A stretch of DNA of 64,000 nt, taken from positions 62,001 to 126,000 of the forward strand of contig NZ_BONW01000049.1 in NCBI RefSeq assembly GCF_016862915.1, written 5' to 3'. The stretch is from Plantactinospora endophytica. Lineage in GTDB: Bacteria > Actinomycetota > Actinomycetes > Mycobacteriales > Micromonosporaceae. Under the pieces are notes generated by a model, which was given only the letters and a program-made list of their open reading frames with translations, was not told the DNA's origin and made no database searches. The position numbers and the translations under genes are program-made. Position 1 is the first letter of the stretch. Each line of letters opens with the position of its first letter. Below are positions 3,596-13,916 of the stretch, in pieces.

Positions 3596-4069
3596 GTGCG
3601 GACGCGACGGCAGGCAAGGCTCGGGATGCGGCGGCGGACGAAGCTCGGGGCGCGACGGCGGAAGAAGCTCGGCAAGCGGCTGGCGAACGCGCTGCTCCGG
3701 GCCGATCTTCCGGAGGTGGTCGCCCTGCTGGCCGCCGGTGTCGACCCGAACGCGGCGACCCCGGACGGCAGCACTCCGCTGTACCGGGCGTCGGTGCAGG
3801 GCCTGGCGCCGGCCGTACTGCTGCTGTTGGCCGCCGGGGCGGCCCCGGACACGGAGAGCGGACACGGCGACGAGGGCACCCCGTTGACCGGCGCGGCGGC
3901 CTGGGGCCACACCGAGGTGGTACGCCACCTGCTGGCGTACGGCGCCGACCCGGACCACCGGGAGGACTCCGGCACCGGCGCGTCCCCACTCGACTGGGCG
4001 GTACGCGGCGACCACCGGGAAACGGCCGAGCTGCTCCGGGCGGCTGACCGGACTACTTCGGAGAGTTAA
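3596..4069 (+). CDS. Ankyrin-repeat protein
   Basis: Protein of about 157 residues with a basic N-terminus rich in Arg/Lys followed by three to four ankyrin repeats (units LLAAGVDPNAATPDGSTPL, LLAAGAAPDTES and LLAYGADPDHREDSG). Ankyrin repeats bind protein partners; no catalytic domain is present and the partner is unknown. GTG 3596 is chosen because TACCCT stands about six bases upstream, a typical leaderless arrangement. An upstream in-frame start (3521) would add low-complexity sequence and ATG 3627 is an alternative. Its TAA and the stop of the convergent gene share the four bases TTAA. Confidence 0.82.
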   Translation: MRTRRQARLGMRRRTKLGARRRKKLGKRLANALLRADLPEVVALLAAGVDPNAATPDGSTPLYRASVQGLAPAVLLLLAAGAAPDTESGHGDEGTPLTGAAAWGHTEVVRHLLAYGADPDHREDSGTGASPLDWAVRGDHRETAELLRAADRTTSES

Positions 4070-4761
4070 CCGAGGTCGCAGGCCCGTCCGTTGACCGTGC
4101 AACTGATCGGCCGTTCGCTGTCGCCCCAGCGTTCGAGGTGGAACCGCAGCGGATCGGAGCGGTTGCCGGACAGCGGCACACCACTGCGGAAGACGTACCG
4201 TCCGTCGTCACGGTCCGCCGACGGCCGGGGCGCACCCTCGATCCAGTAGTTGCGCAGGCCGTGCACCTCGTTGCGGAACCGCAGCTCCACCGTCCAGGAC
4301 TGCGCCGCGCCGCCGGTGTTCCGGACCAGCACCTCGGCGATGAACGAGTCACGGTAGTCGGCGAGTACCCGGTAACGGCCGGTCAGTGCGGGCTCCGCCG
4401 GCTTCGGTGCGGCGGTGGTCGGCCGGAACGACGGCGGCGGTGTCGTGCCCCGGGACGGCGTGGTCCGGGACGGTGCCGGGTTGCGGGCGCCGGCCGGCCG
4501 CGCCGTGGTGGGTGTCGGCAGCGCGGGCTCGACGGTCGGCACCCCGTCCGTCGGGCTGGCCGGCCCGGCCGCCGAGGACGGGGTCCCGCCCTGGGCGAAC
4601 GGCCAGGCCGGATCGGGTACGCCCGAGGTGCGCCGCAGGTCGCTGGAGAAGTAGCCGGTGGCGAGTACGAAAAGGATGATCATGACCAGGACGCCGGCCA
4701 GTACGACCAGCCACGGCGCCGCCGCGAGGAACCGCGGCCGGGTCGGTTCGGGTGCGCTCAC
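4066..4761 (-). CDS. Membrane-anchored protein with C-terminal CBM2-like domain
   Basis: Of 231 residues, the first part holds one transmembrane segment (about 10-35, PWLVVLAGVLVMIILFVL), giving a type II anchor. A Pro/Thr/Ser-rich extracytoplasmic linker follows to about residue 125. The last 105 residues resemble a family 2 carbohydrate-binding module (SWTVELRF near the middle, CTVNGRAC near the end, like the FTLNGTAC ending of that family). There is no catalytic domain. The GTG start overlaps the stop of the upstream NlpC-like gene in GTGA, so the two are translationally coupled and probably act together at the cell surface. The CBM assignment is by pattern and moderately secure. Confidence 0.7.
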   Translation of the reverse strand: MSAPEPTRPRFLAAAPWLVVLAGVLVMIILFVLATGYFSSDLRRTSGVPDPAWPFAQGGTPSSAAGPASPTDGVPTVEPALPTPTTARPAGARNPAPSRTTPSRGTTPPPSFRPTTAAPKPAEPALTGRYRVLADYRDSFIAEVLVRNTGGAAQSWTVELRFRNEVHGLRNYWIEGAPRPSADRDDGRYVFRSGVPLSGNRSDPLRFHLERWGDSERPISCTVNGRACDLG

Positions 4762-5438
4762 CGAGCCGGGACCCGCACCGAGATCTCGTCGCCGAGCCGC
4801 CGCCCGGCGGAGAGTTCCAGGTCGTCGCCGCTCCAGAACCTGCCGGGGTCGTACCAGTTCGGCCGGCGCCCGGCCGGCAGCAGTCCCATCGCCTGGTAGG
4901 TCGCCGCGACGACCTCGGCGCAGTACGCCGTCTCCAGGGTGCTGTCGTCCGGGCGGCGACGCACGGCGGGTGCCCGGCCACGCAGCCACCGCCAGGCGAG
5001 CTGGGCGGTGGACGGGAACGGTGTTCCGTCCAGGCGGGCGATGGTACGCAGCACCCCGTTCTCCATCTCGTCGTCGGCCGGCGGTTCAAGTTGCCGCAGC
5101 CAGGCGCGCTGCCCGTAGCGGATTCCCCAGACCCGGACCGCGTCGCGCAGGTCGTGCAACTGCACGCCCCGGTGGTTGTTGCCCGACCACATGTCAGGCA
5201 ACGACCGGCCGAGTTCGGCGTGCCACATTAACGGCGGCAGGTCCTCGATAACCACGGACATTCCGACATGGTTCACCGGACTGTTCGTGGTGATCTGGAT
5301 CGCCCGATCCGGCACACTCCGGCCCCGGAAGACCCACACGTCGCCGGTACGGGTCAGCTCGACGGCCTCGTCGAGGCTGAGTTCGCTGCGCTCTTCGGCC
5401 ATCGCCCCCACCTCGGTCCGCCCGTCCGCCCCGGGCAT
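4758..5438 (-). CDS. Permuted NlpC/YiiX-like papain-fold protein
   Basis: Protein of 226 residues resembling the circularly permuted NlpC/P60 (YaeF/YiiX-like) group. GDVWVFRG begins the domain, NHVGM supplies a candidate His and YCAEVVAATYQAMG the candidate Cys. Members are amidases or acyl-handling enzymes; the substrate here is unknown. No signal peptide or membrane segment is seen, so it is likely cytoplasmic unless held by its coupled partner downstream. ATG 5438 is preferred because TAGGGT lies seven bases upstream on this strand; ATG 5402 is an alternative. The function is suggested, not proven. Confidence 0.65.
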   Translation of the reverse strand: MPGADGRTEVGAMAEERSELSLDEAVELTRTGDVWVFRGRSVPDRAIQITTNSPVNHVGMSVVIEDLPPLMWHAELGRSLPDMWSGNNHRGVQLHDLRDAVRVWGIRYGQRAWLRQLEPPADDEMENGVLRTIARLDGTPFPSTAQLAWRWLRGRAPAVRRRPDDSTLETAYCAEVVAATYQAMGLLPAGRRPNWYDPGRFWSGDDLELSAGRRLGDEISVRVPAR

Positions 5439-5456: not shown

Positions 5457-5669
5457 ATGCGCTGGTGGAAGGTAATCGGTGTGGCAAGCGTCGTCGGGGT
5501 CGCGGCGACCGGAGTGGTGCTGGCCCGGGCGGAGCGGCGTCGCCGGGCGTACACCCCGGAGCAGATCCGCGACCGGTTGCGGGAGCGACACGCGGACGCG
5601 GTGGGCGGCGGGATTTCCCCGACGGGTCCGGAGTCCGCCGGGCCGAACAAAACCCAAACCTCGCAGTAA
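5457..5669 (+). CDS. Small single-pass membrane protein, unknown function
   Basis: A 70-residue protein: MRWW, then a hydrophobic segment at about residues 5-22 (VIGVASVVGVAATGVVLA), then a charged stretch (RAERRRRAYTPEQIRDRLRERHADA) and a Gly/Pro-rich tail. Topology is probably N-terminus out or buried, with the basic part in the cytoplasm. No family is recognised. Start and length are supported by the -10 element six bases upstream and the lack of other good starts. It is transcribed toward the PfkB-TIR genes, but these have their own promoter. Confidence 0.6.
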   Translation: MRWWKVIGVASVVGVAATGVVLARAERRRRAYTPEQIRDRLRERHADAVGGGISPTGPESAGPNKTQTSQ

Positions 5670-5690
5670 GTACGCTCGCCGCAGGATCGG

Positions 5691-5725
5691 TTGCGGGCCG
5701 GATAACGAGTCAACATTATCGATAG
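5691..5725 (+). promoter_or_regulatory. Promoter of the PfkB-TIR gene pair
   Basis: TTGCGG (5691-5696), a 17-base spacer and CATTAT (5714-5719) precede ATG 5726 by six bases, so transcription should begin at or next to the start codon (leaderless). The stretch from 5702 is unusually AT-rich for this window. The same -35 hexamer TTGCGG is used by sufR. Confidence 0.55.
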
Positions 5726-7339
5726 ATGGCGGTGCCGCAACCGGGGGCGGGGCGGACAGGCGTCGGCGGGGACGCTTCCGCCGCACCCGAGATCGTGGGG
5801 TTCGGCGCGCTGAACGTCGACTACATCGCGAGCGCGTCCCGACTGTCGCAACGGATGGCGGAGCGGGTCACCGAGTCCGTCGCGCGCTTCGAGTGGAACC
5901 GCGAGGGCCCGGTCGCGCAGGAGGTCATCGACGAGGCGATCCGGCATCTCGGGGTGGCCTCCCTCGGGTACTCGCTGGGCGGGTCGGCCTGGCTCACCAT
6001 CTTCGCGCTGGCCCAGATGGGGGTGAGTCTGCGGCTCGGCTACGTGGGCGTGGTCGGCCGGGTGGAGGCGCCGGGGCTCTCCTTCGTCAGCCAGATGGAG
6101 GAGCTGCGCATCGACCACACCTGGGTGGAGCGCCGGCCGGACCTGCTCAGCGGGGTGTGTCTGTCCTACATCGACGACACCGACCGGGTGATGCTCACCC
6201 ATCCGGGCGCGAACTTCGAGATGTGCGCGTACATCCGGGAGAACGTGGACGAACTCGCCGCCTATCTGGCCACCGCCCGGTACGTGCACGTCACCTCGTT
6301 CCTGGACGAGGAGACCCCGGGGCAGGTGCTGGCGGTACTGACCCTGGCGAAGCGGCTGAACCCGAGGCTCTGCCTGAGCTTCGATCCCGGCTTCGACTGG
6401 GCGGAGCATCCGAGTGCGGCGATCGAGGGGATCCTGCGCCTCACCGACCTGCTGTTCGTGAACTACCGGGAGTTCAAGGCCCTCGGCCGGTACGTCTACG
6501 GCGAGCCGGACGACCTGATCGCCCGTAAGACGCTGGCCCGGTGCAGCCCTGGCTGTACCGCCTTCGTCACGAAGCGGTACGACGTCATCGAGGTCTTCCG
6601 CGCCGTGCCGGCGGGCGTGCTCGCCTCCCGGTTCCAGTTGCAGCGCCCGCCGAGGGAGACGGAGTTGGAGGACGCCACCGGGGCCGGTGACGTCTTCGCG
6701 GCCGGTGTCCTCTCCGCGCTGGCGTCCCGGCGGCTACAGGTCGAACTCGGCGCGTTCGTCGGGCTCAGCCTGGCCCGGCACAAGCTGCGGCACCGGGGAC
6801 CGGGTGCCGACCATCCGGGGCTGCCCGACCTGAGCAAGGGATTCCTCCAGAAGACCGAACGGCTGGGCGGGACCGGCCCGGGGCCGCCGGGGGTGTTCAT
6901 CGCCCACGACGAGCATCCGCAGTGGCGGGTCGTACGCCGATTCGTCGAGGAGAATTGCGGGCTGCCGACGTACGAATTGAAGTCCTCGGACGTGGACGAG
7001 CACAACCTCGCGGATCTCATGCGCCAGACTCTGGCCCGGTGCAGCTTCGCGGTCTGTCTGCTCAGCGCCAAGGACACCGGCCCGGGCAGGCGGAGCCCGG
7101 CCGACCAGAACATTGTTCACCAGGCTGGCATCTTTCAGGGTCGCTACGGGTTCGGGCGAGTCGCGATACTGGCCGAAGAGGGCTGCGATACGTTTTCGAA
7201 CATCGCGGGCCTGATCCGGATGGACTTCCCTCCCGGCCGGATCACCAGCACGTTCCTCGAACTGGAGCGCATGCTGCGGCGCGAGGGCCTGATGCGGCGA
7301 TGGGGTGGCAGACGTGACGGATTTTCCCATTCACATTGA
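5726..7339 (+). CDS. PfkB-family kinase fused to TIR-like (CAP12-type) domain, diverged copy
   Basis: A 537-residue fusion. Residues about 22-375 are a ribokinase/PfkB fold: GFGALNVDY at the start, GYSLGGSAWL (82-90), the NYRE motif (246-249) and DATGAGD (316-322) with D322 as expected catalytic base. Residues about 388-520 match the TIR-like domain found in CBASS/Pycsar TIR effectors: VFIAHD (390-395), a CLLSAKD strand and ADQNIVHQAGIFQGRYG (459-474). Two positions differ from active relatives: the Asn of the PfkB GGxAxN signature is Leu90, and the TIR Glu is Gln466. It overlaps the next gene by 35 bases, so the pair is probably co-translated. The first copy may be a regulatory or sensing subunit; a role in antiphage defence is inference. 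Confidence 0.85.
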   Translation: MAVPQPGAGRTGVGGDASAAPEIVGFGALNVDYIASASRLSQRMAERVTESVARFEWNREGPVAQEVIDEAIRHLGVASLGYSLGGSAWLTIFALAQMGVSLRLGYVGVVGRVEAPGLSFVSQMEELRIDHTWVERRPDLLSGVCLSYIDDTDRVMLTHPGANFEMCAYIRENVDELAAYLATARYVHVTSFLDEETPGQVLAVLTLAKRLNPRLCLSFDPGFDWAEHPSAAIEGILRLTDLLFVNYREFKALGRYVYGEPDDLIARKTLARCSPGCTAFVTKRYDVIEVFRAVPAGVLASRFQLQRPPRETELEDATGAGDVFAAGVLSALASRRLQVELGAFVGLSLARHKLRHRGPGADHPGLPDLSKGFLQKTERLGGTGPGPPGVFIAHDEHPQWRVVRRFVEENCGLPTYELKSSDVDEHNLADLMRQTLARCSFAVCLLSAKDTGPGRRSPADQNIVHQAGIFQGRYGFGRVAILAEEGCDTFSNIAGLIRMDFPPGRITSTFLELERMLRREGLMRRWGGRRDGFSHSH

Positions 7340-8933
7340 CGACCGTGCCGATCTAGCCGGTTTCGCCCTTGATGTGGTCGGCGTCGGTGCACTGAATCTC
7401 GACTATCTCGTGAGCGCACCGTCGGTCGGCGCATCCGATTCACCCCGGTCACTGACCGAACGGATCTCCCGACTCGTCGAACGGACCGGGCCGCCGTTGG
7501 AACCGGGTACGGAACGGGCGGTCGACGCGGGGACGATCCACGCCGCGATCGAGGCCGCCGGCTTCGCCCGCCCGGAGACGCTGCTCGGCGGAACGTCGTT
7601 CAGTCTCGGCGGATCCGCCTTCAACGCGATCTTCGCGATCGCGCAGACCCAGGTCGGGCTCCGGCTCGGCTACGTCGGGGTGGCGGGGCGGGTGCCGGTG
7701 ATCGGGCTCTCCACCGTGGCGCAACTCGAAGCGCTCGGCATCGACCACCGGTACGTCTTCTCGGACGACGAGCACCTCTGCGGGATCTGCCTCTCGCTGG
7801 CCGAGGACGGCGACCGCACCCTGCTCACCCACTCCGGCGCCAACGAGTACCTGGCCGACCATCTGGACCGGGAGTTCGACCAGGTGGTCGGTTATCTGGC
7901 CGGGGCCCGGGTGGTGCACGTGACGTCGTTCCTGGACGACCGGACGCCGGGCCGGCTGCTCCGGGTGCTGCGGGCGGTGAAGCAGGCGGCCAGCGGTACG
8001 GCGATCTGTTTCGACCCGGGCCACGTGTGGAGCGCGGCGGCCACCCCGGAGATCGAGGCGCTGCTGGGGCTGAGCGACTACCTGCTGGTCAACTACCGCG
8101 AGTTCCGGGAGTTGGGCCGGCACGTCGAGGGCGAGTCGGACGAGACGGTGGCGGGCCGGCTGGTGGCCCGGACGGCCGGCGGGCGGGGCGTGGTGGTGGT
8201 CAAGCTGCCCACCGGGATCTGGTCCTACCAGCGGGAGGACGGCAAGCTGGTCAGCGACTTCTACGCCCAGGCGCAGGTCGCTCCGGCCGACGTGAAGGAC
8301 GCCACCGGCGCCGGGGACGTCTTCGCCGCCGGTCTGCTCACCGTGCTGACCAGCGACCGGTTGCAGGTCGAACTCGGCTCGTTGCTCGGCATGCGGCTGG
8401 CCCGGCACAAGCTGCGGCACGTGGGCAGCGGCGGTCACGCCCAGTTCGCCGAGGTCACCCGCGAGTTTCTCCGGTCGCTGGCCATGCAGCGCCGCGCCGA
8501 CGGGCTGCCGAACGGCGTCTTCATCGCGCACGGCGCCCGCCCGGAGTGGCTCGCGGTGCAGCGGTTCATCGAGGAGCGCTTCGAGCTGCCGGTGTACTCG
8601 TTCGAGAGCGGGTCCTGGGGCGGGCGTCAGGTGACCGAGGCGCTGGCTGACTACCTCGACCGGTGCGGGTTCGCGATCTGCGTGTTGACCGCCGAGGACT
8701 TCACCGGGGACGGCCGGCGGCTGGCCCGGCAGAACGTGGTGCACGAGGTCGGGCTCTTCCAGGGCCGGCACGGCTTCGACCGGGTGATGGTGCTGGCTGA
8801 GGAGGGCTGCGACTTCGTGCCGCAGGCTGCCGGGCCGTACACCATCTCTTTTCCGCGTAACGGCATCAGCCGGACGTTCTACCAGCTCGACGAGATGATC
8901 CGGGCCCAGGGTTTCGGGCCCGTCGAGCACTGA
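7305..8933 (+). CDS. PfkB-family kinase fused to TIR-like (CAP12-type) domain, intact copy
   Basis: A 542-residue paralogue of the preceding protein, same architecture. The kinase part (about 20-390) has VGVGALNLDY, LGGSAFN (101-107, Asn107 present), NYRE (263-266) and DATGAGD (332-338, Asp338). The TIR-like part (about 403-535) begins VFIAHG (405-410) and has ARQNVVHEVGLFQGRHG (474-490) with Glu481 at the position of the NAD-hydrolysing Glu. The likely activity is NAD+ cleavage controlled by the ligand or product state of the kinase domain; this is inferred from domain families. GTG 7305 is inside the previous gene; GTG 7314 is an alternative. After the stop come 231 non-coding bases before aconitase. 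Confidence 0.86.
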   Translation: MADVTDFPIHIDDRADLAGFALDVVGVGALNLDYLVSAPSVGASDSPRSLTERISRLVERTGPPLEPGTERAVDAGTIHAAIEAAGFARPETLLGGTSFSLGGSAFNAIFAIAQTQVGLRLGYVGVAGRVPVIGLSTVAQLEALGIDHRYVFSDDEHLCGICLSLAEDGDRTLLTHSGANEYLADHLDREFDQVVGYLAGARVVHVTSFLDDRTPGRLLRVLRAVKQAASGTAICFDPGHVWSAAATPEIEALLGLSDYLLVNYREFRELGRHVEGESDETVAGRLVARTAGGRGVVVVKLPTGIWSYQREDGKLVSDFYAQAQVAPADVKDATGAGDVFAAGLLTVLTSDRLQVELGSLLGMRLARHKLRHVGSGGHAQFAEVTREFLRSLAMQRRADGLPNGVFIAHGARPEWLAVQRFIEERFELPVYSFESGSWGGRQVTEALADYLDRCGFAICVLTAEDFTGDGRRLARQNVVHEVGLFQGRHGFDRVMVLAEEGCDFVPQAAGPYTISFPRNGISRTFYQLDEMIRAQGFGPVEH

Positions 8934-8965
8934 CCACCGGACCACCGTCCCGGTATCCGGGCAGG

Positions 8966-8982
8966 CTTGCGTTAATAGCAAG
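8966..8982. other. Small hairpin after the PfkB-TIR pair
   Basis: CTTGC-GTTAATA-GCAAG forms a five-base-pair stem 33 bases after the stop at 8933. It lacks a T-run, so it is a weak terminator candidate at best; the AT-rich loop could equally be part of the aconitase promoter region. Confidence 0.3.
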
Positions 8983-9013
8983 ACGGACGTACGGTTTTGT
9001 TGAGTACGAACGT

Positions 9014-9048
9014 CGGTAAGGGTTACCTCAGCCCGGTGGCCAGGTAAC
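9014..9048. promoter_or_regulatory. Possible iron-regulator (IdeR/DmdR-like) box upstream of aconitase
   Basis: GGTAA-GGG-TTACC (9015-9027) is a perfect dyad, and its surroundings match about 13 of 19 positions of the actinobacterial IdeR/DtxR consensus TTAGGTTAGGCTAACCTAA. A further half site GGTAAC lies at 9043-9048. Aconitase is an Fe-S enzyme whose expression is often tied to iron, which makes the reading plausible; it is not proven. No separate -10 could be fixed with confidence. Confidence 0.35.
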
Positions 9049-9164
9049 GGGTAGGAAAGACTGCTCGGTACTACGCCCGGTCGCCCGCCGGTCGAGGGCC
9101 GGTCGGACCCGCCCCGGAGACCGACGACCTGGGCCGGGACGAAGACAGCGTGAAGGAGTACGAC

Positions 9165-11954
<2,790 letters not shown>

Positions 11955-12959: not shown

Positions 12960-13916
12960 TCAGCGTGCGGTGGAGGTGTCCGGCAGCAGGCTTGTCGCCC
13001 CGGGCACGTACGGGTCGAGCAGGTGGGTGGCGAGCACGATCCGTTGCCAGCGGCTGACCGGTACCCCGGTCGACTCGGCCAACCGCAGCACCGTCCGCCA
13101 GTCCGTGGAGCAGCGGGCCCGGATCCGGGCGATCAGCGACACGAGTTCACCGGTTGCCCGGCCCGAAGCGTCCGGCCGGCGCGTCCGGGCCACCTCCTCC
13201 AGCTCACCGAGGGTCCGGTCCAGTTCGAGGTCCACCTCCGGGGTGGCCGCCTCCAGCCGGTCGGCCAGGGCGAACGCCTCCGACCGACCGTCCGGGGCGG
13301 GACCCGCCGAGCCGCCCAGCCGCCGGAAGAGGCCGGCCCGGGTCTCGTGGGTGCAGAGCACGGCCAGCTCCCGCAGCAGGTCGGCCGGCTCGTCGGCGGC
13401 GTGCACCAGGTTGAGTTGGTAGTTGAAGCTGCCGACGTCGTAGCGGAGCTGTCCGGGTCGACATCGGACCGGGTCGGCCGGCCCCTTGGCCGCGCTGAGC
13501 ACCAGCGAGGCCGGTTCGGGGCGGCCGGGCAGGGCGAGCAGCAGGAGCAGGCACTCGCACGCGGTCACGTAGAGGTCGGCGGCATCCCGCCTGTCCCGGC
13601 TGGCGGCGTTCAGGCCGTACTGCCACAGTGCCCGTACGCCGTGCCGGTCGATGGTCACGGTCGCCGCCCAGACGATGCTGAAGCCGTACGCCAGCACCCA
13701 GCGCAGCACCGGACCGAGCCGGCGGCTGACCACGGCGTCCGGCTTCAGCAGCAGCAGTGCGTGGTCGTGGCAGAACTCCTCGATCCGGCCACCACCGACG
13801 GCGACCAGGTCCTCGAAGCTCTCCCGGAAATACGTGTCGACCGCGTAGAGGGACCGCTTCCGGGGAAGCGTCGACAGGAAGGCGGGGATTTCCTGGGCGC
13901 CGGGGGTGGTGGCCAT
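12960..13916 (-). CDS. Nucleoside-diphosphate-kinase-domain protein with C-terminal extension
   Basis: Of 318 residues, about 50-190 follow the NDP kinase fold: HALLLLKPDAVVSRRLG (52-68, Lys58), then KGPADP and CRPGQLRYD, and NLVHAADEPAD (169-179) with His172 where the phospho-His lies in NDP kinases. Ordinary NDP kinase is about 140 residues; here an N-terminal 50 and C-terminal 130 residues are added, the latter charged and helical. It begins six bases after the eIF2B-like gene, so the two form an operon. Whether it phosphorylates NDPs or another acceptor is unknown. Confidence 0.68.
   Translation of the reverse strand: MATTPGAQEIPAFLSTLPRKRSLYAVDTYFRESFEDLVAVGGGRIEEFCHDHALLLLKPDAVVSRRLGPVLRWVLAYGFSIVWAATVTIDRHGVRALWQYGLNAASRDRRDAADLYVTACECLLLLLALPGRPEPASLVLSAAKGPADPVRCRPGQLRYDVGSFNYQLNLVHAADEPADLLRELAVLCTHETRAGLFRRLGGSAGPAPDGRSEAFALADRLEAATPEVDLELDRTLGELEEVARTRRPDASGRATGELVSLIARIRARCSTDWRTVLRLAESTGVPVSRWQRIVLATHLLDPYVPGATSLLPDTSTAR

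Follow-up and report, generated by a model that had tools for sequence, protein, structure and literature searches.

Complementary loss of TIR active-site residues in paired PfkB-kinase/TIR fusion proteins of actinobacteria

In a stretch of 64,000 nucleotides from Plantactinospora endophytica (contig NZ_BONW01000049.1, positions 62,001 to 126,000; referred to as the window) two overlapping genes, A and B, encode proteins that consist of a PfkB-type kinase domain and a C-terminal TIR domain. Sequence comparison establishes the architecture of the two proteins, their pairing and co-inheritance, a complementary loss of TIR active-site residues, low ratios of nonsynonymous to synonymous substitution rates (dN/dS) and the presence or absence of both genes as one unit. 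Our preferred but tentative interpretation is an NADase that works only as an A:B complex, its composite active site being split between the two paralogues and gated by kinase-fold sensors. Such a pair would probably act as a suicide-type module, perhaps directed against phages.

Domain architecture and complementary residues in the TIR domains

Gene A (5726..7339, 537 amino acids, ATG start) and gene B (7305..8933, 542 amino acids, GTG start within the 3' end of A) are located on the + strand, as are all features described for them below, and overlap by 35 nucleotides. Pfam searches detected both domains above their cut-offs in both proteins: PF00294 (PfkB) with 68.8 bits in A and 82.6 bits in B (cut-off 25.8) and PF10137 (CAP12-PCTIR_TIR) with 45.1 bits in A and 62.1 bits in B (gathering cut-off 24.7). 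The PfkB domain extends over residues 77-336 of A (5954..6733) and 96-350 of B (7590..8354), and the TIR domain over residues 390-501 of A (6893..7228) and 405-516 of B (8517..8852). Within the whole 9.68-Mb genome A and B are the only PF10137 matches at E <= 0.001. The TIR domain of B also matches, at the sequence level, solved chains of CD-NTase-associated protein 12 (Cap12; 9lmq, 7un8) and PycTIR (8jsj), and the assignment as TIR rests on the PF10137 match together with alignments to these Cap12 and PycTIR chains. Matches to PADLOC profiles are confined to the TIR stretch, which corresponds to the later part of those profiles; for the candidate system PDC-S35, too, only the TIR stretch and not the whole profile was matched.

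The original prediction, made from the DNA sequence of the window, had described a tandem of overlapping genes with one common architecture, a PfkB kinase fused to a TIR domain of the CAP12/Pycsar type, and had regarded both TIR domains as enzymes. Both open reading frames, the tandem fusion and the identical order of the domains were confirmed. The TIR domains, however, are not equivalent but have lost residues in a complementary manner, and the view that both are enzymes is not supported, as A lacks the pocket Glu and Arg and usually also the Asn. The numbering of Glu481 and Asp338 is correct for B, and so are the quoted motifs (GGSAFN, NYRE, DATGAGD, VFIAHG and ARQNVVHEVG), but A reads GGSAW, in which the Asn of GGSAFN is missing, and NIVHQAG with Gln466.

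According to the available text of PMC9402430, E84 is the catalytic Glu of SfSTING, R78 and N80 help to coordinate the substrate, and D110 of the opposite TIR mate completes the pocket. In the alignment to 7un8 the chain positions of R, N and E equal the paper numbers plus 8, an offset inferred from the spacing. With this offset E84 corresponds to Glu481 of B (8745..8747) and D110 to Gln507 of B (8823..8825); R475 and N477 are the equivalents of R78 and N80. In A, Gln466 (7121..7123) is aligned with the catalytic Glu, and Asn492 (7199..7201), located in the DD loop FSNIAGL, is aligned with D110; both residues were assigned via the A-B alignment and alignments of A to solved chains.

For the comparison of single columns we used ten A proteins, ten B proteins and 13 other PF10137 TIRs, consisting of all ten non-pair PF10137 matches found and three Rhizobiaceae plasmid TIRs, some of them with other N-terminal parts. 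The E84 column contains Glu in all ten B and in 13/13 others but in none of the ten A (nine Gln, one Leu). Arg is present in the R78 column of 10/10 B, 0/10 A and 12/13 others, and Asn in the N80 column of 10/10 B, 3/10 A and 13/13 others. The DD loop displays the reverse pattern. In the D110 column all ten A have Asn and the 13 others have Asp (nine) or Asn (four), and in none of the ten B, as aligned, is either residue found there (Gln 4, Ala 3, Pro, Leu, Tyr); the Gly of the G113 column is kept in 10/10 A, 2/10 B and 11/13 others. The loci in the genomes G058, G113 and G001 agree, with Gln and FSNIAGL in A and Glu in B. Over the 13 pair loci described below, the catalytic Glu is present in 13/13 B and 0/13 A (12 Gln, 1 Leu).

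Both motifs, ARxNV(V/I)HExG and FSNIxG(L/I), occur within one protein in seven reads of near relatives (two of them also among the 13 others), which originate from Agrobacterium, Ciceribacter, Klebsiella and Hymenobacter plasmids and one Microcystis phage record. By this comparison the ancestral TIR domain probably had both motifs. Tandem TIR pairs on three plasmids keep both motifs in both copies, and therefore tandem duplication alone is not sufficient to produce the pattern of complementary loss. On a fourth tandem plasmid the second copy diverges after the catalytic motif and runs into a stop. Two PF10137-type TIR frames lie close together at L046, L047 and L087 (Rhizobiaceae plasmids), with the motifs kept in both, and a further PF10137 TIR is present as a 531-residue frame at L073 (G256:C17), in a genome that also contains an A-B pair.

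The conservation of the two TIR domains is mirrored as well. B is the better conserved of the two over the 79 columns of the catalytic half (mean of A minus B -0.29) and A over the 41 columns of the DD-loop half (+0.16); none of 129 circular shifts was as extreme. This test cannot stand alone, because the kinase domain shows A/B differences by region of its own, and its weight would lie in the correspondence with the known head and tail residues.

Distribution, co-inheritance and selection of the pair

The 13 distinct pair loci comprise the window, G058, G113, G001 and L033-L041, the last nine from Actinoallomurus, five Streptomyces, Bailinhaonella, Nocardia and a Streptosporangiaceae metagenome-assembled genome. 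The hosts belong to four named actinobacterial families besides that of the window. L034 and L035 apparently belong to G256 and G814, as BLAST values and frame lengths are identical, and were counted once. The full fusion was detected in 4/150 genomes of the family sample (some match in seven, the other three with the kinase domain only), in 3/394 genomes of the class sample and in 2/396 of the phylum sample (some match in eight, six of which are distant kinases). A pattern-based scan of genome contigs, which gives a lower bound, returned the full fusion at 9 of 13 loci.

A is located upstream of B on the same strand at all 13 pair loci. The genes overlap by 4-35 nucleotides in ten of them and are separated by 7 nucleotides in L040 and 33 nucleotides in L039, as measured from script-chosen starts; the spacing in G001 was left out because A is broken there. 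At the other loci genes were called with a simple script, which misses some (for example A in L040) and chooses starts roughly. The pairwise identities of ten A and ten B proteins are strongly correlated (Mantel r 0.92, 0/5000 permutations as high). In a quick tree of the kinase domains A forms one clade (support 96 in the Shimodaira-Hasegawa-like approximate likelihood ratio test) and B, together with partly nested kinase-only relatives, the sister group (97). A quick tree of the TIR domains supports A with 99 and B with 94 but gives no firm branching order for these two groups and the TIRs of rhizobia. Most simply, these data would mean that the complete fusion was duplicated once and that both copies were then inherited together. 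The Actinoallomurus pair branches among the Streptomyces pairs and the pair of Streptomyces JJ36 outside them, which is consistent with transfer of the A-B unit.

Comparison of the window with G058 resulted in dN/dS values of 0.13 for the kinase and 0.08 for the TIR domain of A, and 0.17 and 0.05 for those of B. With G113 the corresponding values were 0.15, 0.11 (100 codons, up to the break in A), 0.17 and 0.06. In these close relatives purifying selection acts on both A and B, and by rate A is not decaying. Judged from the sequences the A-B fusion pair is no chance read-through, because 13 loci hold the pair in the same order and the four domains have dN/dS values of 0.05-0.17.

Within the genus the pair is present in 3/7 genomes and the adjacent aconitase gene (Pfam) in 7/7. 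In G032 the homology with the window extends to 5648 and starts again from 8947, with about 30 nucleotides in between; this comparison defines an accessory unit of the two genes plus short flanks (5649..8946), which is absent in 4/7 genomes. The other empty sites, with the same flanks, contain about 50 nucleotides (G078) or about 180-220 nucleotides (G104 and G092). In the aconitase tree carriers and non-carriers are interleaved, with three changes of pair presence. The synonymous divergence (dS) of the window from G058 and G113 was 0.41-0.51 for the pair, 0.40-0.45 for a neighbouring CBM-like gene, 0.27-0.32 for a YiiX-like gene and 0.13-0.20 for the aconitase gene. By these comparisons the two-gene unit comes and goes, and the evidence fits gain or loss. 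A palindrome, TATCGATA, is located just 5' of A in the window and in two same-genus pair loci; as a shared promoter element it was rejected, since it is absent at the other ten pair loci.

On the - strand beside the pair, window 4758-5435 (the YiiX-like gene) has a weak match to a YiiX permuted papain-like family (NCBIfam 18.5 bits, cut-off 216) and no Pfam match at 0.01. The CBM_2-like protein (below the Pfam cut-off) is encoded at window 4066-4761 on the same strand and has a dN/dS of 0.46-0.62 against five genus genomes, compared with 0.09-0.17 for the YiiX-like gene and aconitase. At 12963-13916 (- strand) a 318-residue protein matches nucleoside diphosphate kinase (PF00334, 38.9 bits) over residues 52-187 only.

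Kinase domains, kinase-only relatives and neighbouring genes

Like the PfkB/ribokinase family (ribose-1-phosphate kinases, adenosine kinase, ribokinase), A and B score above the PF00294 cut-off and keep the catalytic motifs: Asp33, Gly102-Gly103, NxxE, Lys300 and the GAGD motif, which reads DATGAGD in A and B of the window, are conserved in 10/10 A and 10/10 B. They differ from this family in their fusion to a TIR domain and in roughly 25-45 extra residues ahead of GGSA, an estimate from the start of the Pfam match. An E-W-(G/N)-x-E-like stretch ahead of GGSA is conserved in both A and B. The Asn of GGSAFN, which we take to be a residue of the substrate pocket, is present in 10/10 B, including that of the window, and in 1/10 A. 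In comparison with the sequences of solved chains the kinase domain of B matches adenosine kinases, ribokinases and one fructokinase. In NCBIfam the kinase domains match ribose-1-phosphate kinases best, but at 47-59 bits these matches are so far below the cut-off of 500 that the substrate cannot be named from them.

Relatives that consist of the kinase domain without TIR were found in two species of Winogradskya, in Paractinoplanes, Dactylosporangium and G081, and broken pieces in G057. Three of them nest in the B clade beside the B protein of Bailinhaonella (support 86) and have likely lost the TIR domain; two branch at the base of B on a long branch. In the two genomes with kinase-only B relatives that were searched whole (G044 and G081, nine candidates scored each) no A was found. 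The relatives of both Winogradskya species adjoin the gene for GAPDH and overlap its end (L042 9006-10972, L043 394-2387; script-chosen starts), and this may possibly be a coupled metabolic pair. The relatives of Dactylosporangium and G081 adjoin a condensation-domain gene, which stands alone in front of them (L045 8618-11059, L020 about 7854-10300).

The neighbourhood of the pair was analyzed with a set of 63 genes, up to four on each side at nine named loci; genes of <60 or >1400 amino acids were excluded (one of 1523 residues was dropped), and the six genes of L040 were picked by hand. The results considered from the Pfam scan of this set cover 25 of its 99 families. An all-against-all BLAST comparison of 20 loci (L019 and L045 being one region) revealed no third gene widely shared beside the pair; gene groups recurring in four to six of these loci are present. 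The contexts vary between genera, and a constant metabolic operon, which the original prediction had named as evidence to the contrary, was not seen among the pairs. In Streptomyces sp. JJ36 a gene for a SLATT_3-SLATT_1 two-membrane effector runs into the start of the pair (L035 7554-8396), the Nocardia locus contains an 8xMP gene and a WD40 giant gene, and at one locus an SsgA-type sporulation gene is directly upstream. The survey for defence islands that had been suggested gave a thin result, with this single SLATT locus and PADLOC families that each occur in one of the 63 neighbours. Among 11 neighbouring open reading frames in the window, Pfam detected neither a CD-NTase, the hallmark looked for in the case of cyclic-oligonucleotide-based antiphage signalling (CBASS), nor a cyclase of the pyrimidine cyclase system for antiphage resistance (Pycsar); the N-terminal domain is PfkB and not a cyclic-nucleotide-binding sensor.

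A composite active site and its alternatives

According to our tentative model A and B would form an obligate hetero-oligomer. The TIR domain of B would provide the head of the NAD-cleaving site, i.e. the BB-loop side with R475, N477 and E481, and the TIR domain of A the tail, i.e. the DD loop with Asn492 and Gly495, completing the site in trans like the neighbouring protomer in TIR-STING. In the TIR-STING relatives the active site is composed from two TIR protomers and activity requires head-to-tail TIR contact (available text of PMC9402430), a requirement that would make A+B one competent site and leave A+A and B+B without any. As neither protein alone holds a full site, activity would need both, and open-ended head-to-tail growth would be blocked. 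The kinase-fold domains would both sense a ligand, such as a sugar, nucleoside or nucleotide, and mediate dimerisation: the ligand would shift their arrangement until the TIR halves meet, NAD+ would be cleaved, and the cell would stop or die. For co-inherited and selected TIR domains with mirror-image loss, a head of B that meets a tail of A is therefore the simplest account. It is from these comparisons that we infer the heteromer, the active site in trans, NAD cleavage, ligand gating and an anti-phage purpose. We hold with slightly more reserve a further version, in which duplication and complementary loss split one TIR site into a head in B and a tail in A, each with its own sugar/nucleoside-kinase sensor; this two-key switch would not polymerise via the TIR-STING head-to-tail interface and would fire only when A meets B. 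For the output of the pair, depletion of NAD, production of a signal and a metabolic reaction are all candidates.

Among known systems, CBASS Cap12 (TIR-STING; SfSTING 7un8, ElSTING) shares the PF10137-type TIR domain, of which B keeps the R78/N80/E84 equivalents. The sensor is STING there and a kinase fold here, the window neighbours lack the CD-NTase, and TIR-STING is one protein forming filaments, whereas in the pair A retains one half of the site and B the other. PycTIR of Pycsar (8jsj) is similar in its TIR domain (30 bits for B with PADLOC PycTIR, and a match in the PDB), but it holds both motifs in one protein, and the N-terminal domain of A and B is PfkB. The nearest TIR sequences found, with 34-43% identity, are PF10137 TIRs of Rhizobiaceae, Klebsiella and Hymenobacter plasmids and one phage record. 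They share the wording ARxNVxHExG and FSNIxG with A and B but contain both motifs per protein, even in tandem, and in three that were scanned no PfkB match was found. FAM118A and FAM118B are likewise paralogues, each weakly active, that process NAD markedly better together (available text of PMC12700824); they have a sirtuin fold, are found in vertebrates and contain no TIR domain. The words kinase and PfkB do not occur in the available main text of a paper on PF10137 domestication (PMC13142454). Searches of open-licence literature, with subscription journals largely outside its scope, found neither a system of PfkB-TIR proteins nor a bacterial pair of TIR proteins that share a split site, and together with the PADLOC matches, limited to the TIR stretch, this agrees with the original prediction, which had matched the arrangement to no named system.

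In the main rival explanation B would work as an NADase on its own, and A would be a pseudo-enzyme that holds it in check in the manner of an antitoxin or a sensor partner, as the Glu-less RRS1 restrains RPS4; the DD loop of A would then serve for docking and not for catalysis. We consider this rather unlikely; it predicts that B is active alone. In the available text of PMC7282519 the RRS1 TIR domain lacks the catalytic Glu and works with RPS4, and sensor-type TIR-containing nucleotide-binding leucine-rich repeat receptors act through a paired competent one; these are plant receptors, and that text makes no statement of a split active site. The missing Glu of A in 13/13 loci and the order of the genes, with A first and overlapping B in 10/13, fit a restrainer. 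A self-sufficient B leaves unexplained the loss of the DD-loop residue that is kept in 13/13 other PF10137 TIRs, and a lethal free B would hardly be tolerated at the two loci where A is frameshifted and B open, except if the frameshifts are errors of assembly.

Two further explanations appear improbable to us. The TIR pair could yield an ADP-ribose-type product, and the kinases could phosphorylate this or a related ribose compound to a messenger for an unlinked receptor. The kinase catalytic residues kept in both paralogues would be accounted for, ribose-1-phosphate kinases are the best NCBIfam matches, though far below the cut-offs, and the TIR proteins ThsB of Thoeris produce signalling nucleotides (available text of PMC11204291); but the 20 loci compared contain no conserved third gene as a candidate for the receptor, and the unit is gained or lost as two genes. 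An accessory enzyme of actinomycete metabolism or development, for nucleoside or ribose salvage and NAD turnover and without an immune role, would agree with the position of kinase-only relatives, which adjoin GAPDH in both Winogradskya species and a condensation-domain gene in two other genomes, with the many metabolic neighbours of the pair and with the SsgA-type gene upstream of one locus. Against such a function speak the rare and patchy occurrence (4/150 sampled family genomes, 3/394 of the class), presence or absence at one site and contexts that differ between genera.

Several observations weigh against the obligate A:B enzyme and its possible role in defence. With E values of 0.4 and 0.75 the TIR profile of A matches the solved chains of PycTIR and 9lmq only weakly. 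In B the residue at the D110 position was assigned by alignment, and a gap in the B protein of L040 makes the column uncertain by one residue. Conservation is also regionally uneven in the kinase domain, A being higher near the N-terminus and B at residues 331-380, and the mirrored conservation was thus rejected as a TIR-specific feature. A is frameshifted in 2/13 loci (G113 in the TIR domain, G001 in the kinase domain) and B is open in 13/13; these frameshifts may be assembly errors or recent loss, the data fit both, and unless they are assembly errors B may work without A in G113 and G001. The kept catalytic residues of the kinase would also fit a metabolic enzyme, and several neighbours of the pair are ordinary metabolic genes. 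In PADLOC 14 families each matched one of the 63 neighbours, possibly the same one in several cases, without a background control; the neighbourhood is weak evidence for a defence island and was not used as support. The phage collection yielded a single match, with the TIR domain only, and in viral contigs no relative was confirmed, so that carriage of the pair by viruses was rejected.

If the obligate A:B reading is correct, the kinase fold would represent a new sensor class for immune-type TIR proteins, and the kinase domain may indicate an unrecognised nucleoside or sugar danger signal. The pair would also allow the rule of two protomers per TIR active site to be tested on a natural example, head and tail apparently having been separated by evolution into two proteins, and a TIR enzyme that is an obligate heteromer would be a useful tool in studies of the switching-on of TIR enzymes.

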